Positions 20,219-40,535 of a stretch of DNA of 50,736 nucleotides are shown here, piece after piece. Position 1 is the stretch's first letter, and each line of letters begins with the position of its first letter. The stretch comes from Baaleninema simplex PCC 7105. Lineage in GTDB: Bacteria > Cyanobacteriota > Cyanobacteriia > Cyanobacteriales > Geitlerinemataceae. Made by a program: the position numbers and the translations under genes. The stretch is taken from the NCBI RefSeq assembly GCF_000332355.1, contig NZ_KB235958.1:30001-80736 (forward strand), read 5' to 3'. The notes under the pieces are model-generated. The model worked only from the letters and a program-made list of their open reading frames with translations. It was not told the origin of the DNA and did no database searches.

Positions 20219-20414
20219 AGTGGTGCAGAAAAGTCTTGAAACCCTTGTTAGAAACGATATCGCCGTATTAAAGGGTTGGCCACGAAATCCCAGATCGGTA
20301 AATTGCTGCCGGAGATCCCCGGCATCTCCAAGATGCCGGGGATCTGGCTCGAGCCTAGATACATATTTTATGTGTTTTGTCAATCTCCGATTTTGAAAAA
20401 TTTTCTGCACCACT
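20219..20414. mobile_element. 196-bp MITE-like element
   Basis: Perfect 14-bp terminal inverted repeats, AGTGGTGCAGAAAA (20219-20232) and TTTTCTGCACCACT (20401-20414), extend imperfectly inward. There is no coding capacity. Imperfect direct repeats, GAGGGGTAAGTC on the left and GAGGGGGTAAGTC on the right, flank it. A dispersed palindrome is nested at 20313-20345. It fits a non-autonomous miniature transposon; the parent transposase is not in the window. Confidence 0.75.
20313..20345. repeat. AGATCCCCGGCATCT palindrome, copy 1
   Basis: A perfect 15-bp inverted repeat with a 3-nt centre (CCA). An almost identical copy is at 33624-33656 and a diverged one at 31828-31860. A REP-like dispersed hairpin, here nested in the MITE. 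Confidence 0.85.
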
Positions 20415-27667: not shown

Positions 27668-28804
27668 TCAACGTATTACCAAAGCGATTAAAGCTAGGAT
27701 AGCGGTTACGCCGTAAAACGTCGCGACGACCTGTAACTCCGACCACCCCGATAGCTCGAAGTGGTGGTGTAACGGTGCCATTTTAAACAGACGTTTTCCG
27801 ATGCCGTCGGGATCCTTCGTCGCTTTGTAATACCCCACTTGGGCGATAACTGATAAAGTTTCGGCAAAAAATAGCCCGCTGAGAACTAACAAGCCAAACA
27901 GAACGTTTGCCAATACCCCGACGGCTGCTAAAGCGCCCCCTAACGCCAAGGAACCCGTATCTCCCATAAATACCCGTGCGGGATTGCGGTTGTGGGCTAA
28001 AAAGCCCAAGCAGGCACCGCTCGCGATCGCGCAAAACAACGCCAAACCGGGAAACGTCGGCGCGACGATCGCCGCCAGTCCCAAAAACGCGATCGCCCCC
28101 GTTCCCCCCATCAAACCGTCGAGGCCGTCAGTCAGGTTAGTGGCGTTGCTTTCGGCCACGAGGACGAACCCTGCTAACAGCCAAAACAGCGCCCCCAAGG
28201 GAAGCGCCCAACCGCCGGGAAACTGTACGGTTTCGCTCTCGGCCAGACCGGGGGTTATTTTCGCCCAGGCACAAAACAGGATGGCGAAGCCGATTTGCAA
28301 CGCTAATTTCGTGCGTGGTGAAATTCCCTTGTTGGATTTGCGGCGCAAGACTTGCCAGTCGTCGAGCCATCCAATAAAGGCGTAAGCCAGGGTCAACGCC
28401 GAAACGCCGACGACCGAGATGCGATCGACCGACGACATTTCCCCGGACAGGAACACCCACGCCCCAGCAACGATCGCGGCTGCGGGAACGAACAGAATTC
28501 CGCCCATTGTAGGCGTTCCCGCTTTTTTAAAATGAGCTTGGGGTCCTTCTTGGCGAATTACCTGACCGGTTTTAAGCTGTTGCAGGACGGGAACCCCCCA
28601 AACGCCGACGATCGCCGACAATGCTGCGCCGACCCACAGCGGTAACGTCAGTGAGAACGCAGGATCGAACAGGCGATCGCCCGAAACGTCAAAACCGATC
28701 GCAGCGAGACTCAAGCCTCCCGCCAACCCCCACGACAGACGCCCTCCTGTGAGGGTCGCTCGTCGGTTTGAAACTTTCGTATCCACAGCACTTCTTTTTG
28801 ACAC
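27668..28804 (-). CDS. mraY: Phospho-N-acetylmuramoyl-pentapeptide transferase
   Basis: MraY moves phospho-MurNAc-pentapeptide from UDP onto undecaprenyl phosphate to make lipid I in peptidoglycan synthesis. 378 residues with ten expected membrane helices. Diagnostic motifs: the conserved KKAGTPTMGG, NATNLTDGLDGL (catalytic Asp pair), ARVFMGDTGSLALGG and the cytoplasmic MAPLHHHFE. The C-terminus is complete. The first 20 residues are polar and not conserved, so the true start might be internal. No other mur genes adjoin it, as is common in cyanobacteria. Confidence 0.97.
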   Translation of the reverse strand: MSKRSAVDTKVSNRRATLTGGRLSWGLAGGLSLAAIGFDVSGDRLFDPAFSLTLPLWVGAALSAIVGVWGVPVLQQLKTGQVIRQEGPQAHFKKAGTPTMGGILFVPAAAIVAGAWVFLSGEMSSVDRISVVGVSALTLAYAFIGWLDDWQVLRRKSNKGISPRTKLALQIGFAILFCAWAKITPGLAESETVQFPGGWALPLGALFWLLAGFVLVAESNATNLTDGLDGLMGGTGAIAFLGLAAIVAPTFPGLALFCAIASGACLGFLAHNRNPARVFMGDTGSLALGGALAAVGVLANVLFGLLVLSGLFFAETLSVIAQVGYYKATKDPDGIGKRLFKMAPLHHHFELSGWSELQVVATFYGVTAILALIALVIR

Positions 28805-28890
28805 TCCCCACCCACACTATGTCGTTGTCGATCGCCGGTTTCGTTCGAGTTCGATCGAGATTCCCAGAGATCGAGCCTGAAAACCAGAAC

Positions 28891-29130
28891 CTACAAGTCG
28901 TCCCCGTCGCTGTCGTCGCTGTCGCTATAACTATCGTCCTCTTCCTCTGCAATCAAACCGATGAATTCTTCTTCTTCGCGAGCGGAAGACTGCTCTCGAT
29001 CGTCGCGAGGAATGATGCGCCCCGAGGCTTTGAGCCATTCCAAAAGAGAAGTTTCGCGATGGGACGGAATGAGTTCCGCCGGTTCGTGACGGGGTAGTTG
29101 ACGCAGAGAGGGATTGATCGGATCGTTCAT
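28891..29130 (-). CDS. DUF3134 family small acidic protein
   Basis: 79 residues. The first half (NPSLRQLPRHEPAELIPSHR, ETSLLEWLKASGRIIPRD) is the conserved core of DUF3134, found in cyanobacteria. The second half is strongly acidic (EEEDDSYSDSDDSDGDDL). No signal or membrane segment, so probably cytoplasmic. Function unknown. Encoded between mraY and a methyltransferase gene, all on the minus strand. Confidence 0.8.
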   Translation of the reverse strand: MNDPINPSLRQLPRHEPAELIPSHRETSLLEWLKASGRIIPRDDREQSSAREEEEFIGLIAEEEDDSYSDSDDSDGDDL

Positions 29131-29253
29131 TCTCGTTTTTGGGACTTTATGGAATTAATTCGTCGTTGAATGGTAACACTTTGCCCGCAATTGCCCGGCT
29201 GTCGTCGAGCAAAAACGCTACAGAACGCAGGCAAGTCGATTACCTCATCGATT

Positions 29254-30423
29254 TTAAAACATTGGTGGCGGCGTTAACCCCTTTAACCGATCGCGATCGC
29301 TCTCTAAGCCTTTGCTTTGAACCAACACGCCGAATCCCCCCAATCCCATCGGGTCGATGAGGGAGTGCAACACTTGGCGACGCTGCATGATGTCGATAAT
29401 CTCCTGTCCGGTAGCTGGACGGTTCTCCTGTCCCAGTTCGGCCAGGCGTTCTCCGAGTCCCAACGCCATTAAAAACAAACCCTGTTGGGTAAAGCCTTCT
29501 GTCGTTAACCCGCAGGCATCTCCTTGACGTTGTAAGGCAGTAAAATCCACGTGAGCGGTGATGTCTTGTTCTCCGATCGCCGTATAGGGATCGTCGTGAT
29601 AGCGATGTTGGCAATAACACTGTAACGTCCCGCGCGATCTCCCGATTGCGTAGTATCGTCGTGCTTCGTAGCCGTAATCGACGGTCAACACGTAACCTCG
29701 GTCGAGTTTGTTCGCAACGGTTTCCATCCAAGAGAGGGCTTGCAGGTTCACCTCGGTTCGATAGCCCTCCCGAAAGTGGCTGGGGTCGATTCCTACGAAG
29801 TCGAAATACGATCGCAGTCGTGGTGCAGACAATTCCCCCGTTACCTCTCGAAACGCGCCCGATTCGTCGAGCGTGGTGTAGATTTCTTGCAACTGACCCC
29901 CTTCGACGGCGATGCGGTGGACGGGAAAGGCATCGACGAGTTCGTTGGAGAGAAAACAGCCGACGATCGACGAATCGGGAATCTCTTCCCAGTCGCACCA
30001 ACGCAGGTTAGCCCCTTGAATTTGTTTCTGATGCGATCGCAAACTCGAGGAGGTTTCGACAATAACGTATTCGATCGCCTCGAAACACCCGAACGCTTCT
30101 CGTTGTAGATATTTCAACAGATCGACGGCTAAAATACCTTGACCTGCCCCCATTTCTACGATCGAAAACGGCTTGGGTTTTCCTAAGATTTCCCACATCT
30201 GACGCAACTGTTTCGCCAGCATTTCCCCAAAATCTGCACTGAGATGGGTTGAGGTGACGAAATCGCCCCCGGCTCCGAATTTCGCTCCACGGGAGTAGTA
30301 GCCGTGTTGGGGGTGATACAAGACCGTTTCCATGTAGTCGGCGAAGGAAATGCGACGGTCGGGCGCGTTTTCGATGCGATGTTGGATCGATCGAACCAGT
30401 TCGGGGTTGGAGTTGGGCGTCAT
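29254..30423 (-). CDS. MidA/NDUFAF7-like SAM-dependent methyltransferase (COG1565)
   Basis: 389 residues from the chosen ATG 30423. An upstream ATG at 30546 would add 41 residues lacking family resemblance. Family features: ISFADYMETVLYHPQHGYYS, GGDFVTSTHLSADFGEMLA, then the SAM-binding motif IVEMGAGQG and FLSNELVDAFPVHR. The mitochondrial homologue NDUFAF7 dimethylates an arginine of complex I; bacterial members are less studied. In a cyanobacterium the NDH-1 complex is a possible substrate (inference). Enough motifs survive for an active enzyme. Confidence 0.9.
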   Translation of the reverse strand: MTPNSNPELVRSIQHRIENAPDRRISFADYMETVLYHPQHGYYSRGAKFGAGGDFVTSTHLSADFGEMLAKQLRQMWEILGKPKPFSIVEMGAGQGILAVDLLKYLQREAFGCFEAIEYVIVETSSSLRSHQKQIQGANLRWCDWEEIPDSSIVGCFLSNELVDAFPVHRIAVEGGQLQEIYTTLDESGAFREVTGELSAPRLRSYFDFVGIDPSHFREGYRTEVNLQALSWMETVANKLDRGYVLTVDYGYEARRYYAIGRSRGTLQCYCQHRYHDDPYTAIGEQDITAHVDFTALQRQGDACGLTTEGFTQQGLFLMALGLGERLAELGQENRPATGQEIIDIMQRRQVLHSLIDPMGLGGFGVLVQSKGLESDRDRLKGLTPPPMF

Positions 30424-30599
30424 GGCCACGAAAATCGAGTTGAAGGATTTATGAAAATGTCGCGATCGATTGTAATACTGTTGCGAGTTAGATTGGGCGA
30501 TCGCATCGAAATTTGACTGTTCTCGCGAATTTAGGCTGGAGTGCAAACGCGATCGATCTTTTGGGCTGGTAACGATTTACCCCCATTTTTTTCTAAAGT

Positions 30600-30615
30600 C
30601 TCTCTCTAGAGAGAG
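30600..30615. promoter_or_regulatory. 16-bp perfect palindrome upstream of aldolase
   Basis: CTCTCTCTAGAGAGAG lies about 80 bp before the aldolase start codon. It could be an operator or part of a 5' leader hairpin. Function is not known. Confidence 0.3.
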
Positions 30616-30695
30616 GCAACGTCTCGATTCAATTGAATACCCTAAAAACAAGACTCGGTTAATGTCTTGAAAGCTGTAAAAATTCAACTATTGAT

Positions 30696-31778
30696 ATGAC
30701 GACTACAGTAAAACGCCCCACCTCGATCGAATCCTATCTCGGCGACGAAGCCGACGATCTCCTTAACTATCAAGCGCGACTTCCCAAGGAGATGTTAAAT
30801 CTTCCTTCGGGAGATGTGGTCGATCGCCTGTTCGTCCAGAGCGATCGCAATCCCCAAGTGTTGCGAAGTCTCCAACAACTCTTCTCCCACGGTCGCCTCG
30901 CCCATACTGGCTATCTCTCGATTCTCCCAGTAGACCAAGGAATCGAACATTCCGGCGCAGCCTCCTTCGCTCCCAACCCCCTCTATTTCGACCCGGAAAA
31001 CCTGGTTCGTCTGGCGTTAGAAGGGGGATGCAACGCGATCGCCACTACGTTAGGCGCGTTGGGGTCGGTGTCTCGCCGCTACGCCCACCGCATCCCCTTT
31101 ATCGTCAAGCTCAACCACAACGAGTTACTGACCTATCCCAACCGATACGATCAAATTCAGTTCGCGTCTGTCGACCAAGCTTGGAACCTGGGGGCGACGG
31201 CTGTAGGTGCGACGATTTACTTCGGGTCTGAAGAATCGACCCGCCAAATCCGCGAAGTCGGCCGTGCGTTCGAGCGAGCCCACGAATTAGGAATGGCGAC
31301 GATTTTGTGGTGTTATCTGCGAAATTCCGTCTTCAAACAGGATAAGGACTACCACACCGCCGCCGACCTCACTGGACAAGCCAACCACATGGGTGTCACC
31401 CTCGAAGCCGACATCATCAAACAAAAACAGCCCCAAAGTAACGGCGGATACGACGCCGTCGCTCGCGGTACGGGCGGAAAATACGGCCGTACTGACGATC
31501 GCGTTTACTCGGAACTCACCAGCGACCACCCCATCGATTTGACGCGATATCAAGTCCTCAATTGCTACGCCGGACGCGCTCCGTTAATTAATTCTGGAGG
31601 CGCTTCGGGAGATAACGATTTCGCCCAAGCGGTACGTACGGCGGTCATTAACAAACGGGCTGGCGGTGGCGGTTTGATTTCCGGTCGCAAGGCGTTCCAA
31701 CGTCCGATGGAAGACGGGGTGAAACTCCTCCACGCCATTCAAGATGTGTATCTGTCACCGGAGGTTTCGATCGCCTAA
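30696..31778 (+). CDS. fbaB: Class I fructose-bisphosphate aldolase (DhnA/FbaB type)
   Basis: It interconverts fructose 1,6-bisphosphate with glyceraldehyde 3-phosphate and dihydroxyacetone phosphate through a Schiff-base lysine. 360 residues. Conserved features: [15 protein letters not shown], phosphate-site and barrel strands ([28 protein letters not shown]), ADIIKQKQP (the likely Schiff-base lysine segment) and the C-terminal phosphate grip ([22 protein letters not shown]). Members of this family occur in cyanobacteria beside the main class II enzyme. Stand-alone gene. Confidence 0.93.
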
Positions 31779-31827
31779 ATTCGCCTAAATTCGCCTTAAA
31801 TTTGCATTAAATTTATCGATCGCGCTG

Positions 31828-31860
31828 AGATCCCCGGTATTTTCGAGATACTGGGGATCT
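31828..31860. terminator. AGATCCCCGG palindrome, copy 2 (between convergent genes)
   Basis: Arms AGATCCCCGGTATTT and AGATACTGGGGATCT pair with a few mismatches around TCG. It lies between the convergent aldolase and MBL hydrolase genes, where it could stop transcription from both sides. Same family as 20313-20345 and 33624-33656, so it is a dispersed repeat that may have been co-opted as a terminator. Confidence 0.6.
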
Positions 31861-31867
31861 GTGAATT

Positions 31868-32647
31868 TCACTGAATTTCCAGTTCGGTCGGACAGCCAAC
31901 CTGTCGTTTTCCGTCGCGGTACTCGGCGACGATTTCCCGAAACCGTTTTTGTCCGAAAATGCGGTAGTGTCCGGGGTAGACGGTTTCGATCGCCATTTTT
32001 TGCAAGCGATCGAAACTCTGTAAATAGCTGGAAATTTCACTTCCGGGGAGGTCGTCGAGGAGGTCGCCGTCGTAGACCACATCGCCGGAAAATAACTCTC
32101 GCTTCTGGGAATCGTACAGCGCGATCGCCCCAGGGGAATGTCCCGGTAAATGCAGTACTTCTAAGGCGCGATCGCCTAAATCCAAAACGTCGCCGTCGTG
32201 GAGAATTTGCGTCGGTTCGGCGGCGTTCAGCTTGTACTCGGTGACGGTAAAGCCAGGATAGGGAAGTTCGGCGAAATGCTCTTCTTGTACCCATCCCGAA
32301 TCGCGATCGCACAGGGCGGCGTGGTTATCTCCCTGTTGTAACGCTTCGGCTTCGCAGGCGTGGATGGCGCGGCGATCGAACTCGTGAATTCCCCCCGCGT
32401 GGTCGAAATGGACGTGCGTGGCGATCGCCAACAGGGGTTTGTCTGTCAGTTCGGCGATGTGATGTCGCAAGCTGGCCACGCCCAGCCCCGTATCGATGAG
32501 TAAATCTTGGGTTTGTCCTTTAATCAGCCAAATATTGGCGCGATTCCACTCCCAATAGAAATCTTCGGTAATGCAGTAGAGTCCGTCGTGGATTGTGCGA
32601 GTTACAAACCACTGTTTCGCAACGGATTTTGGTACTTCTTGAGTCAT
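31868..32647 (-). CDS. MBL-fold metallo-hydrolase
   Basis: 259 residues with a metallo-beta-lactamase fold. The metal motif is HVHFDHAGG (about residues 76-84); further ligands are in HLPGHSPGAIALYD (His near 165), SGDVVYDGD (Asp) and the late YPGHY histidine. A two-metal hydrolase of the glyoxalase II-like class is expected. Substrate unknown. It follows the ABC ATPase gene by 77 bp on the same strand and could be the last gene of that operon. The region holds no strong separating terminator, so a link to the transported substrate is possible but unproven. Confidence 0.85.
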   Translation of the reverse strand: MTQEVPKSVAKQWFVTRTIHDGLYCITEDFYWEWNRANIWLIKGQTQDLLIDTGLGVASLRHHIAELTDKPLLAIATHVHFDHAGGIHEFDRRAIHACEAEALQQGDNHAALCDRDSGWVQEEHFAELPYPGFTVTEYKLNAAEPTQILHDGDVLDLGDRALEVLHLPGHSPGAIALYDSQKRELFSGDVVYDGDLLDDLPGSEISSYLQSFDRLQKMAIETVYPGHYRIFGQKRFREIVAEYRDGKRQVGCPTELEIQ

Positions 32648-32724
32648 CGAGCATTAGTATTTTAGGATTTATAAACAAATTTATATTTAGCTTGACAAAA
32701 TTGAAGATACTCTATAATGAAAAA

Positions 32725-33486
32725 TCAAATATTTCGGAGCGATCGCACAATTTTTCGTTTGATTTCGAGAAACTCCGGTGTTAATTTCATATCCAAGGTT
32801 CGATGAGACGGTAAATTGACAGTTACCTGTTCTTGAATCGAACCGGGGTGAGTTCCCATAACATAAATTCGCTGACAGAGAAAAATGGCTTCTTCGACAT
32901 CGTGGGTAATTGTCAATACAGTAATCTGGGTTTTTTCCCAAAGATCGTGAAAAAATGCTTGAAGCTGTTCTCGTGTTTGTGCGTCTAACGCGCCAAAGGG
33001 TTCATCCATTAACAACACTTCTGGTTCGTTAACTAACGCGCGAGCGATCGCAACCCGTTGTTTCATTCCACCCGAGAGTTGTTTCGGGTAAGCGTTCGCA
33101 AACCGAGTCAATCCAATAATCTCTAAATAATAGGCAATGCGATCGCGCTGTTCGGCTTTTGGCATTCCTTTCAACCGTAACCCAAATCCAATATTTTTCG
33201 CGACAGTCAACCAAGGATAGAGGGTGTAACTTTGAAAAACCATACCGCGATCGGAACCCGGCCCCGGCACCACCTCACCCTCGACGATAACTTTTCCCGA
33301 AGTCGGTTTGACCAACCCCGCAATAATATTTAACAATGTCGATTTTCCACAGCCTGACGGCCCGACAATGCCAACAAACTCGTTTGAATAAAGCTCTAAA
33401 TTAATATCTTGTAAAACTGTCAAAAATTTCCGCTTTTGTCGAAATTTATGAGTGATATTGCGAACCTCTAGCTTCGGCTCGTTCAT
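32725..33486 (-). CDS. ABC importer ATPase (TauB/SsuB/NrtD type)
   Basis: 253 residues from ATG 33486; the frame extends 20 codons upstream but without family resemblance. Motifs: Walker A GPSGCGKSTLL, Q-loop VFQSYTLYPWLTV, signature LSGGMKQRVAIARAL, Walker B LLMDEPFGALD, and switch His in LTITHDVEEA. This subfamily energises uptake of taurine, alkanesulfonates, nitrate or cyanate, and pyrimidine precursors. It works with the permease (34627-35451) and binding protein (35658-36719) on the same strand. A hydrolase gene lies between. Confidence 0.94.
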   Translation of the reverse strand: MNEPKLEVRNITHKFRQKRKFLTVLQDINLELYSNEFVGIVGPSGCGKSTLLNIIAGLVKPTSGKVIVEGEVVPGPGSDRGMVFQSYTLYPWLTVAKNIGFGLRLKGMPKAEQRDRIAYYLEIIGLTRFANAYPKQLSGGMKQRVAIARALVNEPEVLLMDEPFGALDAQTREQLQAFFHDLWEKTQITVLTITHDVEEAIFLCQRIYVMGTHPGSIQEQVTVNLPSHRTLDMKLTPEFLEIKRKIVRSLRNI

Positions 33487-33623
33487 GACTCTCAATCGTC
33501 TAGCAACTCGTAGGTTTAATGGAGGCAAGAAATTCAACACACCCAACTGATGAATTTCAAAAAAAATCTATAGCGATGTTAAATGATTCGTGGCAAAATC
33601 CCCTATCGGTTAAGGGTCGGGTG

Positions 33624-33656
33624 AGATCCCCGGCATCTTGGAGATGCCGGGGATCT
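33624..33656. repeat. AGATCCCCGGCATCT palindrome, copy 3
   Basis: A perfect 15-bp inverted repeat with centre TGG, followed by CTGG as in copy 1. It sits in the 175-bp gap between the hydrolase stop and the ATPase start, where it could reduce read-through or stabilise the upstream mRNA. Confidence 0.85.
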
Positions 33657-33661
33657 GGACA

Positions 33662-34300
33662 TCAACAATTTTTAAAATCTTTCAAAAAATTCACAAAATC
33701 TCGAGAGTCCAAACAAGCATTTTTCTGCAAATAGACCATTGCCTTAATCGCCGCACGATGCGCCTCCCAATCCGAACCAATACAACAATCTTCAAGAACG
33801 AAAAAATGATAATCGTGTTGGTGAGCGTCTACCGCCGTATAATGCACGCAAACATCTGTTAACGCTCCCATCAAAACGATGGTATCAGCTTTCAACCCGC
33901 GTAGTAAAATATCGAGATCTGTCGCAAAAAACGCACTGTATCGCCGTTTGGGGACTGTAAACTCCCCTTCAATTGGCAACAGTTCCGGGTGAAAATCGGT
34001 TCCTGGCTCGTTTTCCAAACAATGAATCGGTTCTGCACCATCTAACTCGCGTCCGAAATCCACTAATTCTTTACGATGAACTTCTTGAGTGTGAATAATA
34101 GGTATCTTGGCACGACGCGCCACCTCTAATACCTGTTTCGCTTTGGGGACGACAACATCTGTTCCAACTGTTGAAACGATCGATTCCATAAAGTCTTTTT
34201 GAAAATCGATCGCCAACAATACAGCATTTTCTAAAATAAGTTTCAAAGTCAGAAAATCTCCATTTTGTACATCATTTGTAGGGTGGGCATTGCCCATCAA
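33662..34300 (-). CDS. Isochorismatase-family cysteine hydrolase
   Basis: Up to 212 residues. The catalytic triad of the family is visible: Asp32 in LAIDFQKDF, the Lys in VPKRRYSAF (near 117) and the nucleophile Cys in GALTDVCVHYTAVDA (near 152). Family members cleave amides or ureides such as nicotinamide, biuret, ureidoacrylate and N-carbamoyl compounds. The ATG at 34300 falls inside a GTGGGCATTGCCCA repeat and the first 18 codons have no family match. The true start may therefore be a TTG at 34246, preceded by GGAG. Its position inside an ABC importer operon suggests that it hydrolyses the imported compound. Substrate not predictable from these motifs. Confidence 0.88.
   Translation of the reverse strand: MMGNAHPTNDVQNGDFLTLKLILENAVLLAIDFQKDFMESIVSTVGTDVVVPKAKQVLEVARRAKIPIIHTQEVHRKELVDFGRELDGAEPIHCLENEPGTDFHPELLPIEGEFTVPKRRYSAFFATDLDILLRGLKADTIVLMGALTDVCVHYTAVDAHQHDYHFFVLEDCCIGSDWEAHRAAIKAMVYLQKNACLDSRDFVNFLKDFKNC
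34278..34300. repeat. GTGGGCATTGCCCA palindromic repeat
   Basis: TAGGGTGGGCATTGCCCATC is a widespread cyanobacterial dispersed repeat. A diverged inverse copy (GTGGGCGATGCTCACCCTAC) is at 34594-34613. It overlaps the annotated hydrolase start. Confidence 0.7.
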
Positions 34301-34391
34301 ACTCTACTAAATTTATCAACTAAATCATACGAGATCCGTCATCCGATAAGCTAGGTTTCAAGAAGTCTTCACCACATTTCCCCTTAGCCCC

Positions 34392-34435
34392 CTATCCCCC
34401 TTCCGCCCCCTTTCAAAGGGGGGTTGGGGGGATAG
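34392..34435. repeat. C/G-run palindromic repeat, intergenic copy
   Basis: CTATCCCCCTTCCGCCCCC, a TTTCAAA centre, and GGGGGGTTGGGGGGATAG form a long palindrome. It is the same family as the copy read in frame in tnpB at 19704-19744. Confidence 0.8.
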
Positions 34436-34466
34436 AGTGACTTGTCGGGTTGGGAAAAACCAGTAT

Positions 34467-34519
34467 TTGAGTCCTCGACTCCGCTCGGACTCAACGCTGA
34501 GCGGAGTCGAAGCGTTGAG
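34467..34519 (-). repeat. 48-bp double-hairpin element, copy 2 (intergenic)
   Basis: Reverse-orientation copy of the element at 19191. It differs at one loop base (CGACTCC for CGGCTCC), which makes the two 12-nt loops perfectly complementary. CTCAA flanks both sides. It is between the hydrolase and permease genes, not in a gene. Confidence 0.92.
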
Positions 34520-34626
34520 ATTTGGATTCTGTATCATTTGGGATTTCTATTGCTTGCTTTTAGAGATTCCAACTTCAAAAAAATTAAGCTGAGGTGGGCG
34601 ATGCTCACCCTACTAAATCTTCATCT

Positions 34627-35451
34627 TTAATTTGAGGTCGGTTCTGCCCAAGGTAATGTTAATTTGAAAATCAACTTAAATAGAAAGTCCAAAATCAGAC
34701 CGATCGCACCAATCACGACAATACAAAACAGCACTTTGTCAGTTTGTAAAAAACGCTGAGAATAAATAATTTTAAATCCCAATCCACTTTGAGCGGCAAT
34801 CAATTCAGAAATCACTAAAAAATTCCAAGCTCCCGCCACGTTTACCCGTAACGTATCGATAATGTTCGGTAACGTTGCTGGAAGAATAACTCGCCAGAGT
34901 AAATCCCATCGCGTCGCACCAAGCGTATACGCAACGTTCAACATTTCGTTCGGAATAAACTTCACTGCATCGGCAATCATAATCGCGTTGTAAAAAACGA
35001 TCCCTAAAAAAACGATGATGATTTTAGCAATTTCTCCCAATCCCGCCCACAATACAATTAAGGGCATAAATGCAGCCACTGGCATATACCGCACCGTCCC
35101 CACAAACGCCCCAAACAGACTTTCCATACTGTGAAACGTTCCCATCGCAATTCCAATCGGAATTCCCACGATCGCAGCCACCAAAAACCCCGCTAACACC
35201 CGTCCGAAACTGGCAAAAATATCGACAATTAAATTTTCTTCGACAAACATCTCGATTCCCGCCTGAAGGACAGCCGTAGGGGTGGGAAGAAAGCGGGGAT
35301 CGACCATTTCGCCGTAACTGAGAACTCCCCAAGCACATAGCGGGATAAATAACGCCAACGCCGTGAGCGTCAAACTCAGCCAGCGAGGGAATCCCTGGCG
35401 GATACTCCAAAACACAGACGGACGAAGATAGCGTTTGCGATCGTCGGACAT
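34627..35451 (-). CDS. ABC importer permease (TauC/SsuC/NrtB type)
   Basis: 274 residues with about six membrane helices (first near 25-45). The coupling (EAA) motif of the family is AYTLGATRWDLLWRVILPATLPNI (split here: AYTLGATRWDL and RVILPATLPNI). RYMPVAAFMPLIVLWAGLGE and LRVNVAGAWNFLVISELIAA are typical of nitrate/taurine-type permeases. It forms the membrane channel for the ATPase at 32725-33486. It precedes the hydrolase gene on the minus strand with a repeat-filled gap of 326 bp. Confidence 0.93.
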   Translation of the reverse strand: MSDDRKRYLRPSVFWSIRQGFPRWLSLTLTALALFIPLCAWGVLSYGEMVDPRFLPTPTAVLQAGIEMFVEENLIVDIFASFGRVLAGFLVAAIVGIPIGIAMGTFHSMESLFGAFVGTVRYMPVAAFMPLIVLWAGLGEIAKIIIVFLGIVFYNAIMIADAVKFIPNEMLNVAYTLGATRWDLLWRVILPATLPNIIDTLRVNVAGAWNFLVISELIAAQSGLGFKIIYSQRFLQTDKVLFCIVVIGAIGLILDFLFKLIFKLTLPWAEPTSN

Positions 35452-35455
35452 AAGC

Positions 35456-35576
35456 AGGGGAGAGGGGGAGAGGGGGAGAAGGGGAGAAGGGGAGAAGGGG
35501 AGAAGGGGAGAGGGGGAGAAGGGGAGAAGGGGAGAGGGGGAGAAGGGGAGAAGGGGAGAAGGGGAGAGGGGGAGAA
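35456..35576. repeat. GGGGAGAA/GGGGAGAG polypurine tract, 120 bp
   Basis: About 120 bp of uninterrupted purines in units of GGGGAGA(A/G), ending AGAAGCTG. It starts four bases before the permease start codon, so it takes the place of that gene's upstream region. Mirror symmetry makes triplex (H-DNA) formation possible. Confidence 0.88.
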
Positions 35577-35589
35577 GCTGTTATCTGTA

Positions 35590-35636
35590 AACTGTCTTCA
35601 CTGGTGACTGAAACACTGTTGACTGCTCACTGTAAA
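35590..35636. repeat. ACTG(T/G)TGACTG tract
   Basis: Degenerate ACTGTCTTCACTGGTGACTG-type units, fused to the polypurine tract between permease and binding-protein genes. Related to 65-136. Confidence 0.65.
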
Positions 35637-35657
35637 AGGCTGGTGGCTGTCGCTACA

Positions 35658-36719
35658 TCACGATCCTTCTTCCATAACCGCTTCGACGAACTTGGGTTCT
35701 AACAACGGCTCGAGATCGGGAATCGTATCGATTTGACCTTGACTCTTTAAAAATTCTGCCAAATCGGTTAGGGATTTGAGTAAATATAGATTGCTTTCGG
35801 GATCGCCTAACATTTCCAAATTCATCTCGGCGTCGGGAAATTGAATCCCTTTGAGATCGGCAGCTAACGCCTCTGGAGTCACTTCAAACTGCTTGGCGGC
35901 AATTTCTAACCCTTCTTCGGGGTTCGTTTCGAGGAACGACAATCCTTTAAAAATTCCTTTAACAAAAGCTTCGGCGATTTGAGGATTCGCTTCGAGAAAT
36001 TCGAGATCGAACGCATAAACGTCGGCGATCGCCATCGGCATTTTCGAGGAATCGTAAATAATACGTCCGTCTTCCTGCGCCTCGTTCGCCCGCTGCATAA
36101 ACGGTGCGTAAGTCACTGCAACATCGATGTTTCCAGCCTGATACGCCGCCGCTGCTGAGGGAGGATCGGCGTTCACGAGTGTCACGTCTGACTCCGATAG
36201 TCCTACCTCCTCCAACACCTGAAGTAAGAAAAAGTGACTGACGCCGCCGCGATCGACGGCGATGCGTTCTCCTTTAAACGCCTCGATACTCTCAATGCGA
36301 TTTCGTGCCAAAATTCCGTCGCCGCCGATGGAGGTATCCTCGACTAACACGATGCGAAAATCTTTCTCTTTCGCGGCTAGGGACACCACCTCAGAGGTGA
36401 CGGGTGCGACTGCATCGATTTGTCCGGCAAGAAACGCCGCCACATAGTCGGAATTGGCACCAAAGCTTTTGAATTCTACCTCGAGACCTAATTCTCGAAA
36501 AAATCCCTTATCTTGGGCAATAAACAGCGGCGTAAGTCCGATCCAAACCGTCGAACCGACAGACAAAGACATCATTTCGGTCGGGGTCGTCTCAGCTCCC
36601 TCGGGATCGGGGGACGTGCAAGCGTGCAAGACAAGTCCTCCAGTCACGCCAGACAACAGTTGAAGAACCCGCCGCCGCGAAAACTGGAACGTCGAAGTAG
36701 AGGTCATAATTTCCGTCAA
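35658..36719 (-). CDS. ABC importer substrate-binding lipoprotein (TauA/SsuA/NMT1-like)
   Basis: 353 residues. A twin-arginine motif (SRRRVLQLLSG) and lipobox (LVLHAC) mark a Tat-exported lipoprotein. The mature domain is a type II periplasmic binding fold of the NMT1/SsuA family: LSVGSTVWIGLTPLFIAQDKG, FFRELGLEVEFKSFGANSDY, FLAGQIDAVAP and VDRGGVSHFFLLQVLEEVGL. It delivers an unknown small, probably nitrogen- or sulfur-containing solute to the permease. As the first gene of the minus-strand operon, its promoter should lie in 36720-36986, which is shared with divergent metH. Confidence 0.92.
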   Translation of the reverse strand: MTEIMTSTSTFQFSRRRVLQLLSGVTGGLVLHACTSPDPEGAETTPTEMMSLSVGSTVWIGLTPLFIAQDKGFFRELGLEVEFKSFGANSDYVAAFLAGQIDAVAPVTSEVVSLAAKEKDFRIVLVEDTSIGGDGILARNRIESIEAFKGERIAVDRGGVSHFFLLQVLEEVGLSESDVTLVNADPPSAAAAYQAGNIDVAVTYAPFMQRANEAQEDGRIIYDSSKMPMAIADVYAFDLEFLEANPQIAEAFVKGIFKGLSFLETNPEEGLEIAAKQFEVTPEALAADLKGIQFPDAEMNLEMLGDPESNLYLLKSLTDLAEFLKSQGQIDTIPDLEPLLEPKFVEAVMEEGS

Positions 36720-36986
36720 GCCTTATGTTAGAACAAACAGAGCGAGAACCGATCCCCACGAATCGAGTCGATTTTAAGGAGTATTTACCCTTACCGCGTT
36801 GGCACAAACTGTAGCCGAAACATCTTTTCTAGATCTTTCCTACCACGATTTGACTCCCATCGAGTCGCGATCGCCTCTCGTTCCCGAATTTTCCCATCAT
36901 CCCATCTACTTCGCCCCTCTGTAACAGACCTCGCCTCAAACTGCCATGTAAAATTGTAAAGCTACTCCTTATGTGTGACTTGGTTT

Positions 36987-39900
36987 ATGAATAGCGCCTT
37001 CCTCGATCGACTCCACAGTCCCGAGCGTCCCGTTCTCGTGTTCGACGGCGCAATGGGAACCAACCTACAAGTGCAGAACCTCACCGCCGACGACTTTGGC
37101 GGCCCCGAATACGAAGGCTGTAACGAATACCTCGTTCACACGAAACCCGACGCTGTCGCTACCGTTCACCGCGCCTTCCTCGAAGCCGGTGCCGACGTCA
37201 TCGAAACTGACACCTTCGGCGGAACCCCAGTCGTCCTCGCCGAATACGACCTGGCTAACAAAGCTTACGACCTCAACAAAGCCGCCGCCAAACTGGCCAA
37301 AGACATCACCGCCGAATACTCTACCCCCGACAAACCTCGCTTCGCCGCCGGGTCAATGGGGCCTGGAACCAAACTCCCTACCCTGGGACATATCGACTTC
37401 GACACCCTCCGCAACGCCTACACCGTCCAAGCCGAAGGACTCTACGACGGTGGTGTAGACCTATTTCTCGTCGAAACCTGCCAAGACGTTCTGCAAATCA
37501 AAGCCGCACTCAACGCGATCGAAGACGTCTTCGCCAAAAAAGGCGATCGCCGTCCCATTATGGTTTCCGTCACTATGGAACAGTTCGGAACCATGCTCGT
37601 CGGTTCCGAAATCGGCGCGGCGTTGACCATCCTCGAACCCTACAATATCGATATCCTGGGTCTCAACTGCGCCACCGGCCCCGACTTGATGAAAGACCAC
37701 ATCCGGTACTTATCGGAACATTCCCCCTTCGTGGTTTCCTGCATCCCCAACGCCGGACTTCCCGAAAACGTCGGCGGTCAAGCGCACTACAAACTCACCC
37801 CCCTCGAACTGAAGATGTCCCTGATGCACTTTATCGAGGACTTAGGCGTGCAAATTATCGGCGGATGCTGCGGAACCCGACCCGAACACATCGCCGCCTT
37901 AGCTGAGATTTCCAAAACTCTCCATCCCAAAGACCGAAAACCGAACTACGAACCCTCGGCGGCCTCGATTTACAATACCCAAACCTACGAACAGGACAAC
38001 TCCTTCCTGATCGTTGGCGAACGCCTCAACGCCAGCGGGTCGAAAAAAGCCAGAACCCTCCTCAATAACGAAGATTGGGACGGGTTGATAGCCTTAGCGA
38101 GAGCGCAGGAAAAAGAAGGCGCTCAAATTCTAGACGTTAACGTGGACTATGTGGGACGCGACGGCGTGCGCGATATGCACGAATTGGTCTCGCGTTTGGT
38201 GAATAACGTCAAACTTCCGTTGATGCTGGACTCGACGGAGTGGGAGAAAATGGAAGCGGGGTTGAAAGTCGCCGGAGGTAAATGCCTTCTCAACTCCACC
38301 AACTACGAAGATGGCGAACCGCGATTTTATAAAGTTTTAGAACTGGCCAAAAAATACGGTGCGGGAATTGTCGTCGGCACCATCGACGAAGACGGGATGG
38401 CGCGAACCGCCGAGAAAAAATTCGAGATTGCCAAACGCGCTTATTACGCCGCCATTGAATACGGAATTCCGGCGCGAGAAATCTTTTTCGACCCCCTGGC
38501 ACTTCCCATTTCGACGGGGATTGAAGAAGACCGAGAAAACGGAAAAGCCACCATTGAATCCATTCGCCGAATTCGCGAAGAGCTTCCAGAGTGTCATATT
38601 ACCCTCGGCGTTTCAAACATCTCGTTCGGCTTGAACGCCGCCGCGCGACAAGTCCTCAACTCCGTCTTTCTCCACGATGCAATGGAAGTCGGATTGGATT
38701 CGGCGATCGTCAGCGCCAGTAAGATTTTACCCTTGGCGAAAATCGATTCCGAACACCAAAAAATCTGTCGCGATCTTATTTACGATCGCCGCGAATTCGA
38801 CGGAGACGTTTGCACCTACGATCCCCTCGGTGTCCTCACCACCCTCTTTGAAGGGAAATCGGCGAAGAAAACCAAACAAATCGACGAAAACCTTCCTATC
38901 GAAGAACGGTTAAAACAACATATCATCGATGGCGAACGGATCGGCTTAGAGGAATCCCTGGAAACTGCACTCAAACAGTATCCACCACTCGAAATTATTA
39001 ACGTTTTCCTCCTCGATGGCATGAAAGTCGTCGGCGAGTTGTTTGGTTCCGGACAAATGCAGCTTCCGTTTGTGTTGCAGTCGGCGCAAACCATGAAAGC
39101 GGCGGTGGCGTATCTCGAGCCTTACATGGATAAAGAAGACGCTGACGACAGCGGAAAAGGCATCTTCTTAATCGCCACTGTAAAAGGGGACGTTCACGAC
39201 ATTGGTAAAAACCTCGTCGATATTATCCTCTCGAACAACGGCTACAAAGTCGTCAACCTCGGCATCAAACAACCCGTTGAAAACATCATTCGTGCCTACC
39301 GCGAACACAACGCCGACTGTATTGCCATGAGTGGGTTGTTAGTGAAATCTACTGCCTTCATGAAAGACAATTTAGAAGTCTTCAACGAAGAAGGCATTAC
39401 CGTCCCCGTGATTCTCGGCGGTGCAGCGTTGACACCAAAATTCGTCAATGAAGATTGTCAGAATTCCTATAAAGGACGAGTGGTTTACGGAAAAGATGCT
39501 TTTGCTGACTTACACTTTATGGACAAGTTAATGCCAGCAAAGGCGGATGGCAATTGGGACGATTTGAAAGGCTTCTTAAACGAAGAAAACGGTAAAGCTG
39601 AAGTCGTCAAAACCACAGACGCTGCTGCGAAGAAGTCAGACCAAGAAAAAACCCAAGCCGCCGAACCCATCGAAGTCGATACGCGACGTTCCGAAGCGGT
39701 GGATGTGGATATTGCACGTCCGAAACCGCCGTTTTGGGGAACGAAAATCCTGCAACCGGAAGACATTCCCCTTGAGGAACTCTACTGGTATTTGGACTTA
39801 CAAGCCTTGATTGCGGGTCAGTGGCAATTTCGCAAACCTCGCGAACAGTCTCGGGAAGAGTACGACGCGTTTTTACAAGAAACGGTTTATCCGATTTTGG

Positions 39901-40535
39901 ACACCTGGAAAAAACGAATCCTCGAGGAAAACTTGCTGCACCCTCAGCTCGTTTACGGCTATTTCCCCTGTCAATCGGAAGGAAACTCGCTGCATCTCTA
40001 TAAACCCGAAGACGCGGAATCGGGACAGTTAACCGAACCCGTCGCTACCTTTACCTTCCCCCGTCAGAAATCGATGCGTCGTCTGTGTATTGCGGACTTT
40101 TTCGCGCCGAAAGAAAGCGGACAAATCGATGTCTTTCCGATGCAAGCGGTGACAGTGGGTCATATTGCCACAGAATTCGCAAACAAACTGTTTGCCGCGA
40201 ACGAGTACACCGATTATTTGTACTATCACGGGATGGCGGTTCAGGTGGCGGAAGCGATGGCGGAATGGATTCACGCGAAGATTCGCCGCGAGTTAGGGTA
40301 CGGACATTTGGAACCGGACAACGTTCGGGATGTTTTGGCGCAACGCCACCAGGGTTCGCGATACAGTTTTGGCTATCCTGCGTGTCCGAAGGTTTCCGAT
40401 CAATACCGTCAGTTGGAGTTGATGGGAGTCGATCGCATCGGAATGTATATGGACGAAAGCGAACAGTTATATCCGGAACAGTCTACCACCGCGTTTGTGG
40501 TCTATCATCCGATTGCGAAATACTTCAGCGCCTAG
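36987..40535 (+). CDS. metH: Cobalamin-dependent methionine synthase
   Basis: MetH transfers a methyl group from methyltetrahydrofolate via cobalamin to homocysteine. 1,182 residues from ATG 36987, which gives the usual [20 protein letters not shown] start; a GTG four codons earlier is possible. Four modules are visible. The homocysteine domain has zinc cysteines in GLNCATGP and GGCCGTRP (near 293). The folate domain has [15 protein letters not shown] and the (D/N)VNVDY-like segment. The B12 domain has [14 protein letters not shown], whose His (near 737) binds cobalt. The C-terminal AdoMet reactivation domain has [15 protein letters not shown]. All are complete. No cobalamin riboswitch is recognisable in the 250-bp upstream gap. 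Confidence 0.97.

Follow-up and report, generated by a model that had tools for sequence, protein, structure and literature searches.

A five-gene cluster of the cyanobacterium Baaleninema simplex PCC 7105 (contig NZ_KB235958.1) is described here, and all positions are those of the window, i.e., the whole stretch of 50,736 nt of DNA that was analysed. Five open reading frames (ORFs), all found on the minus strand and in the order given by the initial annotation, encode a substrate-binding protein (SBP), an ABC permease, an isochorismatase-like cysteine hydrolase (HYD), an ABC ATPase and a metallo-beta-lactamase-fold hydrolase (MBL) (Table 1). The genes are loosely spaced, with intergenic gaps of 206, 326, 115 and 77 nt in gene order. 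On either side the nearest genes, encoding a class I fructose-bisphosphate aldolase and the methionine synthase MetH, lie on the opposite strand, so the borders of the module are clear.

Table 1. Genes and other sequence features of the locus, with positions in the window.
Feature	Positions	Strand	Basis
SBP: periplasmic substrate-binding lipoprotein, NMT1/SsuA-TauA-like	35658..36719	-	ORF and family scans
Permease, BPD_transp_1, TauC/SsuC-like	34627..35451	-	ORF and family scans
HYD, Isochorismatase PF00857, D32-K118-C151	33662..34300	-	ORF and family scans
ABC ATPase (ABC_tran) with Walker A, LSGG signature and Walker B	32725..33546	-	ORF and family scans
MBL-fold metallo-hydrolase, Lactamase_B	31868..32647	-	ORF and family scans
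Interspersed repeat in the permease-HYD gap, ~2/3 of its 326 nt	34304..34620	.	Own-genome matches
G-rich 8-bp tandem array, in and around the SBP-permease gap	35437..35607	.	
15-bp perfect palindrome with 3-nt loop, HYD-ATPase gap	33624..33656	.	
GTA-N8-TAC match upstream of SBP, perfect; not claimed as an NtcA site	36781..36794	-	

HYD belongs to the isochorismatase family, scoring 152 bits against PF00857, for which the gathering score is 27. The complete Asp-Lys-Cys triad reported in the initial annotation was confirmed as D32, K118 and C151, numbered from a TTG codon at 34300; it aligns with D36, K142 and C175 of the biuret hydrolase BiuH and is kept in 21/21 aligned orthologs. This TTG is probably not the true start, as the N-terminal ~22 residues (34235-34300) are not conserved and conserved homology begins near 34234, and the real start would lie downstream. 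By eye, the non-conserved N terminus overlaps a sequence which we take to resemble a common cyanobacterial repeat.

Biuret hydrolase and nicotinamidase had been named as enzymes sharing this triad, and ureidoacrylate as a compound to be tried as a nitrogen source; none of these specificities was borne out. Against the BiuH model NF050097 of NCBIfam, HYD reached 97 bits (cut-off 370), and HYD and BiuH group in separate clades of the tree with support of 100/100. When residue roles given in an excerpt of PMC5806882 were used for comparison, two biuret ligands were found replaced in the window, K145 by Tyr and T171 by Leu, as was Y47; the equivalent of T171 is Leu or Met in five aligned HYD relatives, and that of Q215 is ambiguous by one alignment column. 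Scores were likewise far below the cut-offs for nicotinamidase PncA (63 bits against 174, PRK11609) and for the ureidoacrylate hydrolase RutB (55 bits against 378, TIGR03614). HYD does share with BiuH (PDB 6azo) its fold, the triad and ABC importer neighbours in cyanobacteria, and 6azo is its best solved relative by sequence, barely ahead of 3hb7. However, the two cyanobacterial genes found to pass the BiuH cut-off are other genes, adjoining another importer type.

The AlphaFold model of HYD (pLDDT 83.8) gave a similar picture, the best 50 chains of the fold comparison being all isochorismatase-like, amidases among them (Z 22.8-26.1). No subfamily was singled out, with RutB at 25.2, maleamate amidase at 24.8, N-carbamoylsarcosine amidase at 24.2 and BiuH at 24.1. 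The top structural match (Z 26.1) was 3hb7, an isochorismatase-like hydrolase of Alkaliphilus metalliredigens whose entry title gives no function. It is 33% identical to HYD over 177 residues and has a KRR(H/Y)S motif in common with it, but in the alignment 3hb7 has no counterpart of the GRELDG stretch found in the cyanobacterial family. HYD is most likely an isochorismatase-fold amidase, forming a new sub-family of a known kind of enzyme.

The three importer proteins have their best matches in the Tau/Ssu/Sao families, and the arrangement of one SBP, one permease and one ATPase is that of TauABC and SsuABC. SBP carries by eye a twin-arginine and lipobox-like N terminus (SRRRVLQLL...LHAC), its best solved relative by sequence is the taurine-binding protein 6ssy, and its orthologs in 15 other HYD loci are 50-77% identical. 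In contrast to those systems the importer of the window lies below the curated cut-offs, SBP scoring 156.5 bits against the aliphatic sulfonate model SsuA (TIGR01728), just under the cut-off of 163.5, and 94 bits against TauA (TIGR01729; cut-off 304), and any substrate assigned to it is a prediction from sequence.

Conservation of the cluster was examined in 291 genomes of the order, taking matches of >240 bits as HYD orthologs; locus counts refer to the stretch fetched around each ortholog and are not corrected for phylogeny. HYD orthologs occur in 21/291 genomes, accompanied by the permease in 19, the ATPase in 18, SBP in 16 and MBL in 12 of the 21 loci, so that the inconsistent neighbours against which the initial annotation had warned were not seen. 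A desaturase-family protein (fatty-acid desaturase, PF00487) is present in 12/21 loci. The permease lies directly upstream of HYD on the same strand and within 400 nt in 15/21 loci by script, a pairing that rises to 17/21 once L042 and L045, where ORF calls overlap, are read directly. The ATPase, SBP and MBL genes switch strand between lineages yet remain near HYD, and G114, the sister genome, has the set in two parts, permease and HYD on one contig and ATPase and MBL on another. HYD is found in 21, MBL in 21 and both in 15 of the 291 genomes (Fisher p 5e-16, phylogeny ignored; genome intersections were compiled by hand, and HYD rows at 38-44% identity were excluded). Outside the order, HYD relatives of 45-57% identity lie directly behind ABC permease genes on five plasmids, from Streptomyces and from the Roseobacter/Paracoccus group (Paracoccus, Ruegeria, Sulfitobacter and Roseovarius), where RidA, ornithine cyclodeaminase or a DMT transporter mostly accompanies them. 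Such neighbourhoods suggest that the locus is a conserved import-and-hydrolysis module.

The neighbours of HYD in some relatives give the best hint of its substrate. On a plasmid of Gloeocapsopsis dulcis (G134), HYD is flanked on one side by an SsuA-like importer and an AsnC-type regulator, and on the other by a nitrile hydratase set of four genes, for the alpha subunit, two half-beta proteins and an accessory protein. The set adjoins HYD also in genome G231 and in Elainella saxicola, and in Vasconcelosia minhoensis the importer and the nitrile hydratase accessory gene lie by HYD, with no alpha or beta gene in the 20.5-kb locus. The SsuA-like importer of these loci is not the set found in the window, and nitrilase-family genes occur in 2/4 of the loci. 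The alpha subunit scored 302 bits against the nitrile hydratase model TIGR01323 (cut-off 250), and its closest solved PDB relatives by sequence are cobalt-type nitrile hydratases. A split beta subunit resembles the arrangement of thiocyanate hydrolase or toyocamycin nitrile hydratase; thiocyanate hydrolase was rejected as an identity of the split enzyme, the alpha subunit reaching 190 bits where the cut-off is 291. At locus L111 (8001-8698) a cyanobacterial nitrile hydratase was observed with its beta subunit split into two genes.

Nitrile hydratase forms amides, open-chain ones as a rule, and classically an amidase acts next, the known partner amidases being of the amidase-signature or nitrilase type. 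Here HYD is the enzyme in that position, and in three relatives it occupies the place expected of the amidase in nitrile hydratase-amidase clusters. Unlike in those clusters, the fold here is that of an isochorismatase, and the window is without nitrile hydratase. Among the matches listed in a literature search there was no paper connecting an isochorismatase-like enzyme with a nitrile hydratase cluster, and no account of this cyanobacterial operon. A full-length alpha subunit (>250 bits; weaker or partial rows, <=107 bits, were dropped before the count) is present in 23/291 genomes, namely in 9/21 genomes with HYD and in 14/270 others (Fisher p 4e-6, phylogeny ignored), lying on a different contig from HYD in 7/9 shared genomes. 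In the tree the HYDs of the four loci group with the HYD of locus L056 (support 81/91), in whose 12.2 kb there is no nitrile hydratase gene. Through HYD orthology, at 64-65% identity, the nitrile hydratase link may be extended to the window, and these neighbours in relatives favour a primary amide over a ureide as the substrate of HYD.

Further exchanges of parts were seen in genomes without HYD. In G415 (L103) the order is desaturase, SBP, another isochorismatase-like enzyme (192 bits against the BiuH model; cut-off 370), MBL, ATPase and permease. In G176 (L104) pieces of desaturase, ATPase and MBL come first, then a fragment of type III glutamine synthetase that scores 301 bits against a cut-off of 470, and beyond it an aliphatic amidase at 705 bits (cut-off 427). 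G241 (L077) has an intact glutamine synthetase of this type (592 bits against 470) between SBP and permease. In G090 a group of SBP, permease, MBL, ATPase and desaturase abuts urea (guanidine) carboxylase and two urea-amidolyase-associated proteins (UAAP), all above their cut-offs. The desaturase (c5) does not belong to the window locus, as its query finds nothing in the window's genome at E<=1e-5; at E<=1e-50 it matches 22/291 genomes.

MBL carries H78-x-H80-x-D82-H83, H170, D189 and H227, which we take to be the full metal motif. When compared with 22 curated families, including glyoxalase II, beta-lactamases B1-B3 and AHL lactonase, it was below the cut-off in all, with a best score of 63.5 against 280. 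Orthologs occur in 21/291 genomes (E<=1e-50), and in 19 the gene is free of internal stops. A search of plasmids for relatives at 38-43% identity matched 59 records, and 11 places were read. ABC importer genes, several annotated as of polyamine type, directly adjoin the MBL relative in 7/11; an agmatinase-type SpeB gene lies in 4/11 stretches and aldehyde dehydrogenase genes in 6/11, and one relative has urea carboxylase and allophanate hydrolase nearby. The stretch read around a Streptomyces relative holds no ABC importer, SpeB or aldehyde dehydrogenase genes. A cluster of Pseudomonas aeruginosa with SpeB and 5-guanidino-2-oxopentanoate decarboxylase, presumably the gbuA cluster, has an MBL 43% identical to that of the window, with the difference that no isochorismatase-like hydrolase is annotated in that stretch. 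The neighbourhoods tie the Proteobacterial MBL relatives to amine or guanidino compounds. The initial annotation had suggested that MBL could act on the next intermediate, which our comparisons neither show nor exclude, since MBL also accompanies the transporter in some genomes without HYD, and occurs alone.

With moderate confidence we lean towards reading the locus as a nitrogen-scavenging module, in which a small amide would be imported and hydrolysed by HYD to the acid and ammonia. The SsuA/TauA-type importer would take up a small organic nitrogen compound, and Cys151 of HYD would attack the primary amide, with Asp32 as base and Lys118 in the triad. The products would be a carboxylic acid and ammonia, the latter passing to glutamine synthetase. 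In some relatives the amide may be made from a nitrile by the adjacent nitrile hydratase. For MBL our guess is a helper hydrolase that belongs to this import system and attacks a non-amide part of the compound. The genes, the fold family, the triad, the kept neighbourhood, the distinction from BiuH and the nitrile hydratase adjacency in relatives are observed, whereas inward transport, an amide as substrate and ammonia as the gain are predicted. Of the import and cleavage of an amide or ureide first proposed for these genes, import and amide are thus strengthened by the conserved neighbourhoods and by the swapped transporters and amide enzymes, whereas the ureide has become less favoured given the nitrile hydratase neighbours.

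Several observations weigh against this reading. The nitrile hydratase adjacency is confined to one HYD branch and goes with a different importer, so the substrate in the window may differ. The window's genome (G000) is without a match to the nitrile hydratase alpha subunit, and it would rely on direct uptake of an amide. A permease ortholog is present without HYD in 28/270 genomes, and in G298 and G267 the MBL gene has neither transporter nor HYD in the sequence read around it (12 kb in G267). The HYD relative of Yoonia has no ABC importer next to it. A single genome supplies each of the examples with amidase, glutamine synthetase, carboxylase or second hydrolase, and several frames in G176 (L104) are broken, with MBL and desaturase interrupted. 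In the window's genome the gaps are interrupted by repeats. Regulatory signals likewise gave nothing in its favour. No riboswitch (guanidine, thiamine or other) reached the gathering threshold in 15 related loci, that of G090 included, and a scan of window positions 28000-40000 returned just two matches (E 0.7), far under gathering scores. The sequence GTA-N8-TAC was not clearly enriched in 97 upstream regions of cluster genes from 25 loci (12 in 19.1 kb) compared with those of 195 other genes (24 in 44.8 kb), and it is for this reason that the match upstream of SBP is not claimed as an NtcA site.

A more specific proposal, possible and held only tentatively, is that the cyanobacterial HYD family would be an uncharacterised isochorismatase-fold amidase that takes the second step in degrading nitriles, next to a split cobalt nitrile hydratase. 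The window would then represent a branch, lacking nitrile hydratase, of a modular locus for scavenging amides and nitriles, between whose lineages the importer, the amidase (HYD, AmiE or a different isochorismatase-like enzyme), MBL and a membrane enzyme of desaturase type are swapped. If true, this would provide a testable function, tied to nitrile hydratase, for a branch of the isochorismatase superfamily that is cyanobacterial and as yet unnamed, and some cyanobacteria would draw nitrogen from amides and nitriles via dedicated importers. The locus family also supplies a co-occurring MBL and desaturase-type enzyme.

Among the other explanations, the one that survives best, although we regard it as unlikely, is that the substrate of HYD is an N-carbamoyl compound or a ureide (N-carbamoylsarcosine-like, ureidoacrylate-like or guanidino-derived) and that the locus feeds urea/guanidine nitrogen metabolism. 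The transporter-MBL-desaturase cluster of G090, beside the carboxylase and both UAAP proteins, is consistent with this, as are the SpeB genes (4/11), ABC importers (7/11) and, in one case, urea carboxylase and allophanate hydrolase around the plasmid MBL relatives, and SBP weakly matches the urea/guanidine SBP model TIGR03427 (96 bits; cut-off 334). However, the carboxylase adjacency comes from a single genome, which has no HYD ortholog, the BiuH and RutB models fail, and the biuret ligands are replaced. No guanidine riboswitch was found in window positions 28000-40000 or the 15 related loci, and the nitrile hydratase neighbours point to amides, making a ureide the less likely substrate of HYD.

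It is more doubtful still that the transporter is a sulfonate or taurine importer, with HYD and MBL as neighbours that share no common pathway with it. The family matches of SBP, permease and ATPase agree with such a role, and in several other genomes the permease is accompanied only by SBP and ATPase, with no HYD or MBL; permease orthologs as a whole number 47/291 genomes (E<=1e-80). Against it stand the pairing of permease and HYD in 17/21 loci despite rearrangements and the scores of SBP, just below the SsuA cut-off and far below that of TauA.

Least probable is a lactamase- or imidase-type HYD whose substrate is a cyclic amide or the product of its opening; the deacetylase-like neighbour seen in some relatives would then open the imide or ureide ring. 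Against this, open-chain amides would be expected from nitrile hydratase and no such deacetylase lies in the window locus or the fetched stretches of 17 other HYD loci, even though a PuuE-like deacetylase (100 bits to the allantoinase PuuE; cut-off 425) is upstream in 3/21 HYD loci and gamma-lactamase activity is known for an isochorismatase-like enzyme (excerpt of PMC5353710).

The wide spacing of the genes in the window has a local aspect. The repeat in the permease-HYD gap has at least 64 match rows in its own genome, whole or partial and counting itself (40 of 248 candidates scored). In relatives with the permease at the locus this gap ranges from an overlap up to 164 nt in 16/18, the exceptions being 973 nt and 6.7 kb; since it is short in so many relatives, widening by repeats in the window is the likelier explanation, and the interspersed repeat seems to have widened the gap. 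The palindrome of the HYD-ATPase gap (33624-33656) contains a 31-bp element that recurs, reversed, at 20314-20344, and a diverged copy lies at 31828-31860. All three share one type (GATCCCCGG...CCGGGGATC), with two copies identical and the third diverged. In its exact form this pattern had 0 occurrences in 100 shuffles, and these palindromes are a repeat family.

Other observations concern genes around related clusters. In L066 (5198-6172) a second desaturase-family protein lies by the transporter cluster and weakly matches the guanitoxin L-arginine hydroxylase model (55 bits; cut-off 380), which hints at a possible hydroxylation of small nitrogen compounds, instead of lipids, by the desaturase-family neighbours. 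The Streptomyces HYD relative (L085 8986-18567) is accompanied by two phosphotriesterase-family proteins and an annotated RidA; ~8 kb on are an annotated aldoxime dehydratase and a carbon-nitrogen hydrolase, the nitrile theme appearing again. In L038, L040 and L041 the HYD cluster is flanked by a PuuE-like polysaccharide deacetylase, an AsnC/Lrp-type regulator and, by eye, a short-chain dehydrogenase, and MBL is absent. In Bosea (L093) a deacetylase 36% identical to the PuuE-like one lies near an MBL relative, and one so annotated occurs near the MBL relative in Paroceanicella (L108).

The order also holds a second isochorismatase group, 38-44% identical to HYD, of which both tested members pass the BiuH cut-off of 370 (385 and 384 bits). 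Loci of the group include L096 (6826-7506 and 9604-10335), L098, L099 and L100. A distant ABC ATPase is present in 8/9 short loci of this group, and in 4/6 longer loci it is a single ORF of ~520 residues. In 4/6 of them a second isochorismatase-like hydrolase lies just beyond, the copy of L096 scoring 252 bits against the BiuH cut-off of 370. By these matches and neighbours, the group is likely to represent an operon for biuret or a related compound in other cyanobacteria.

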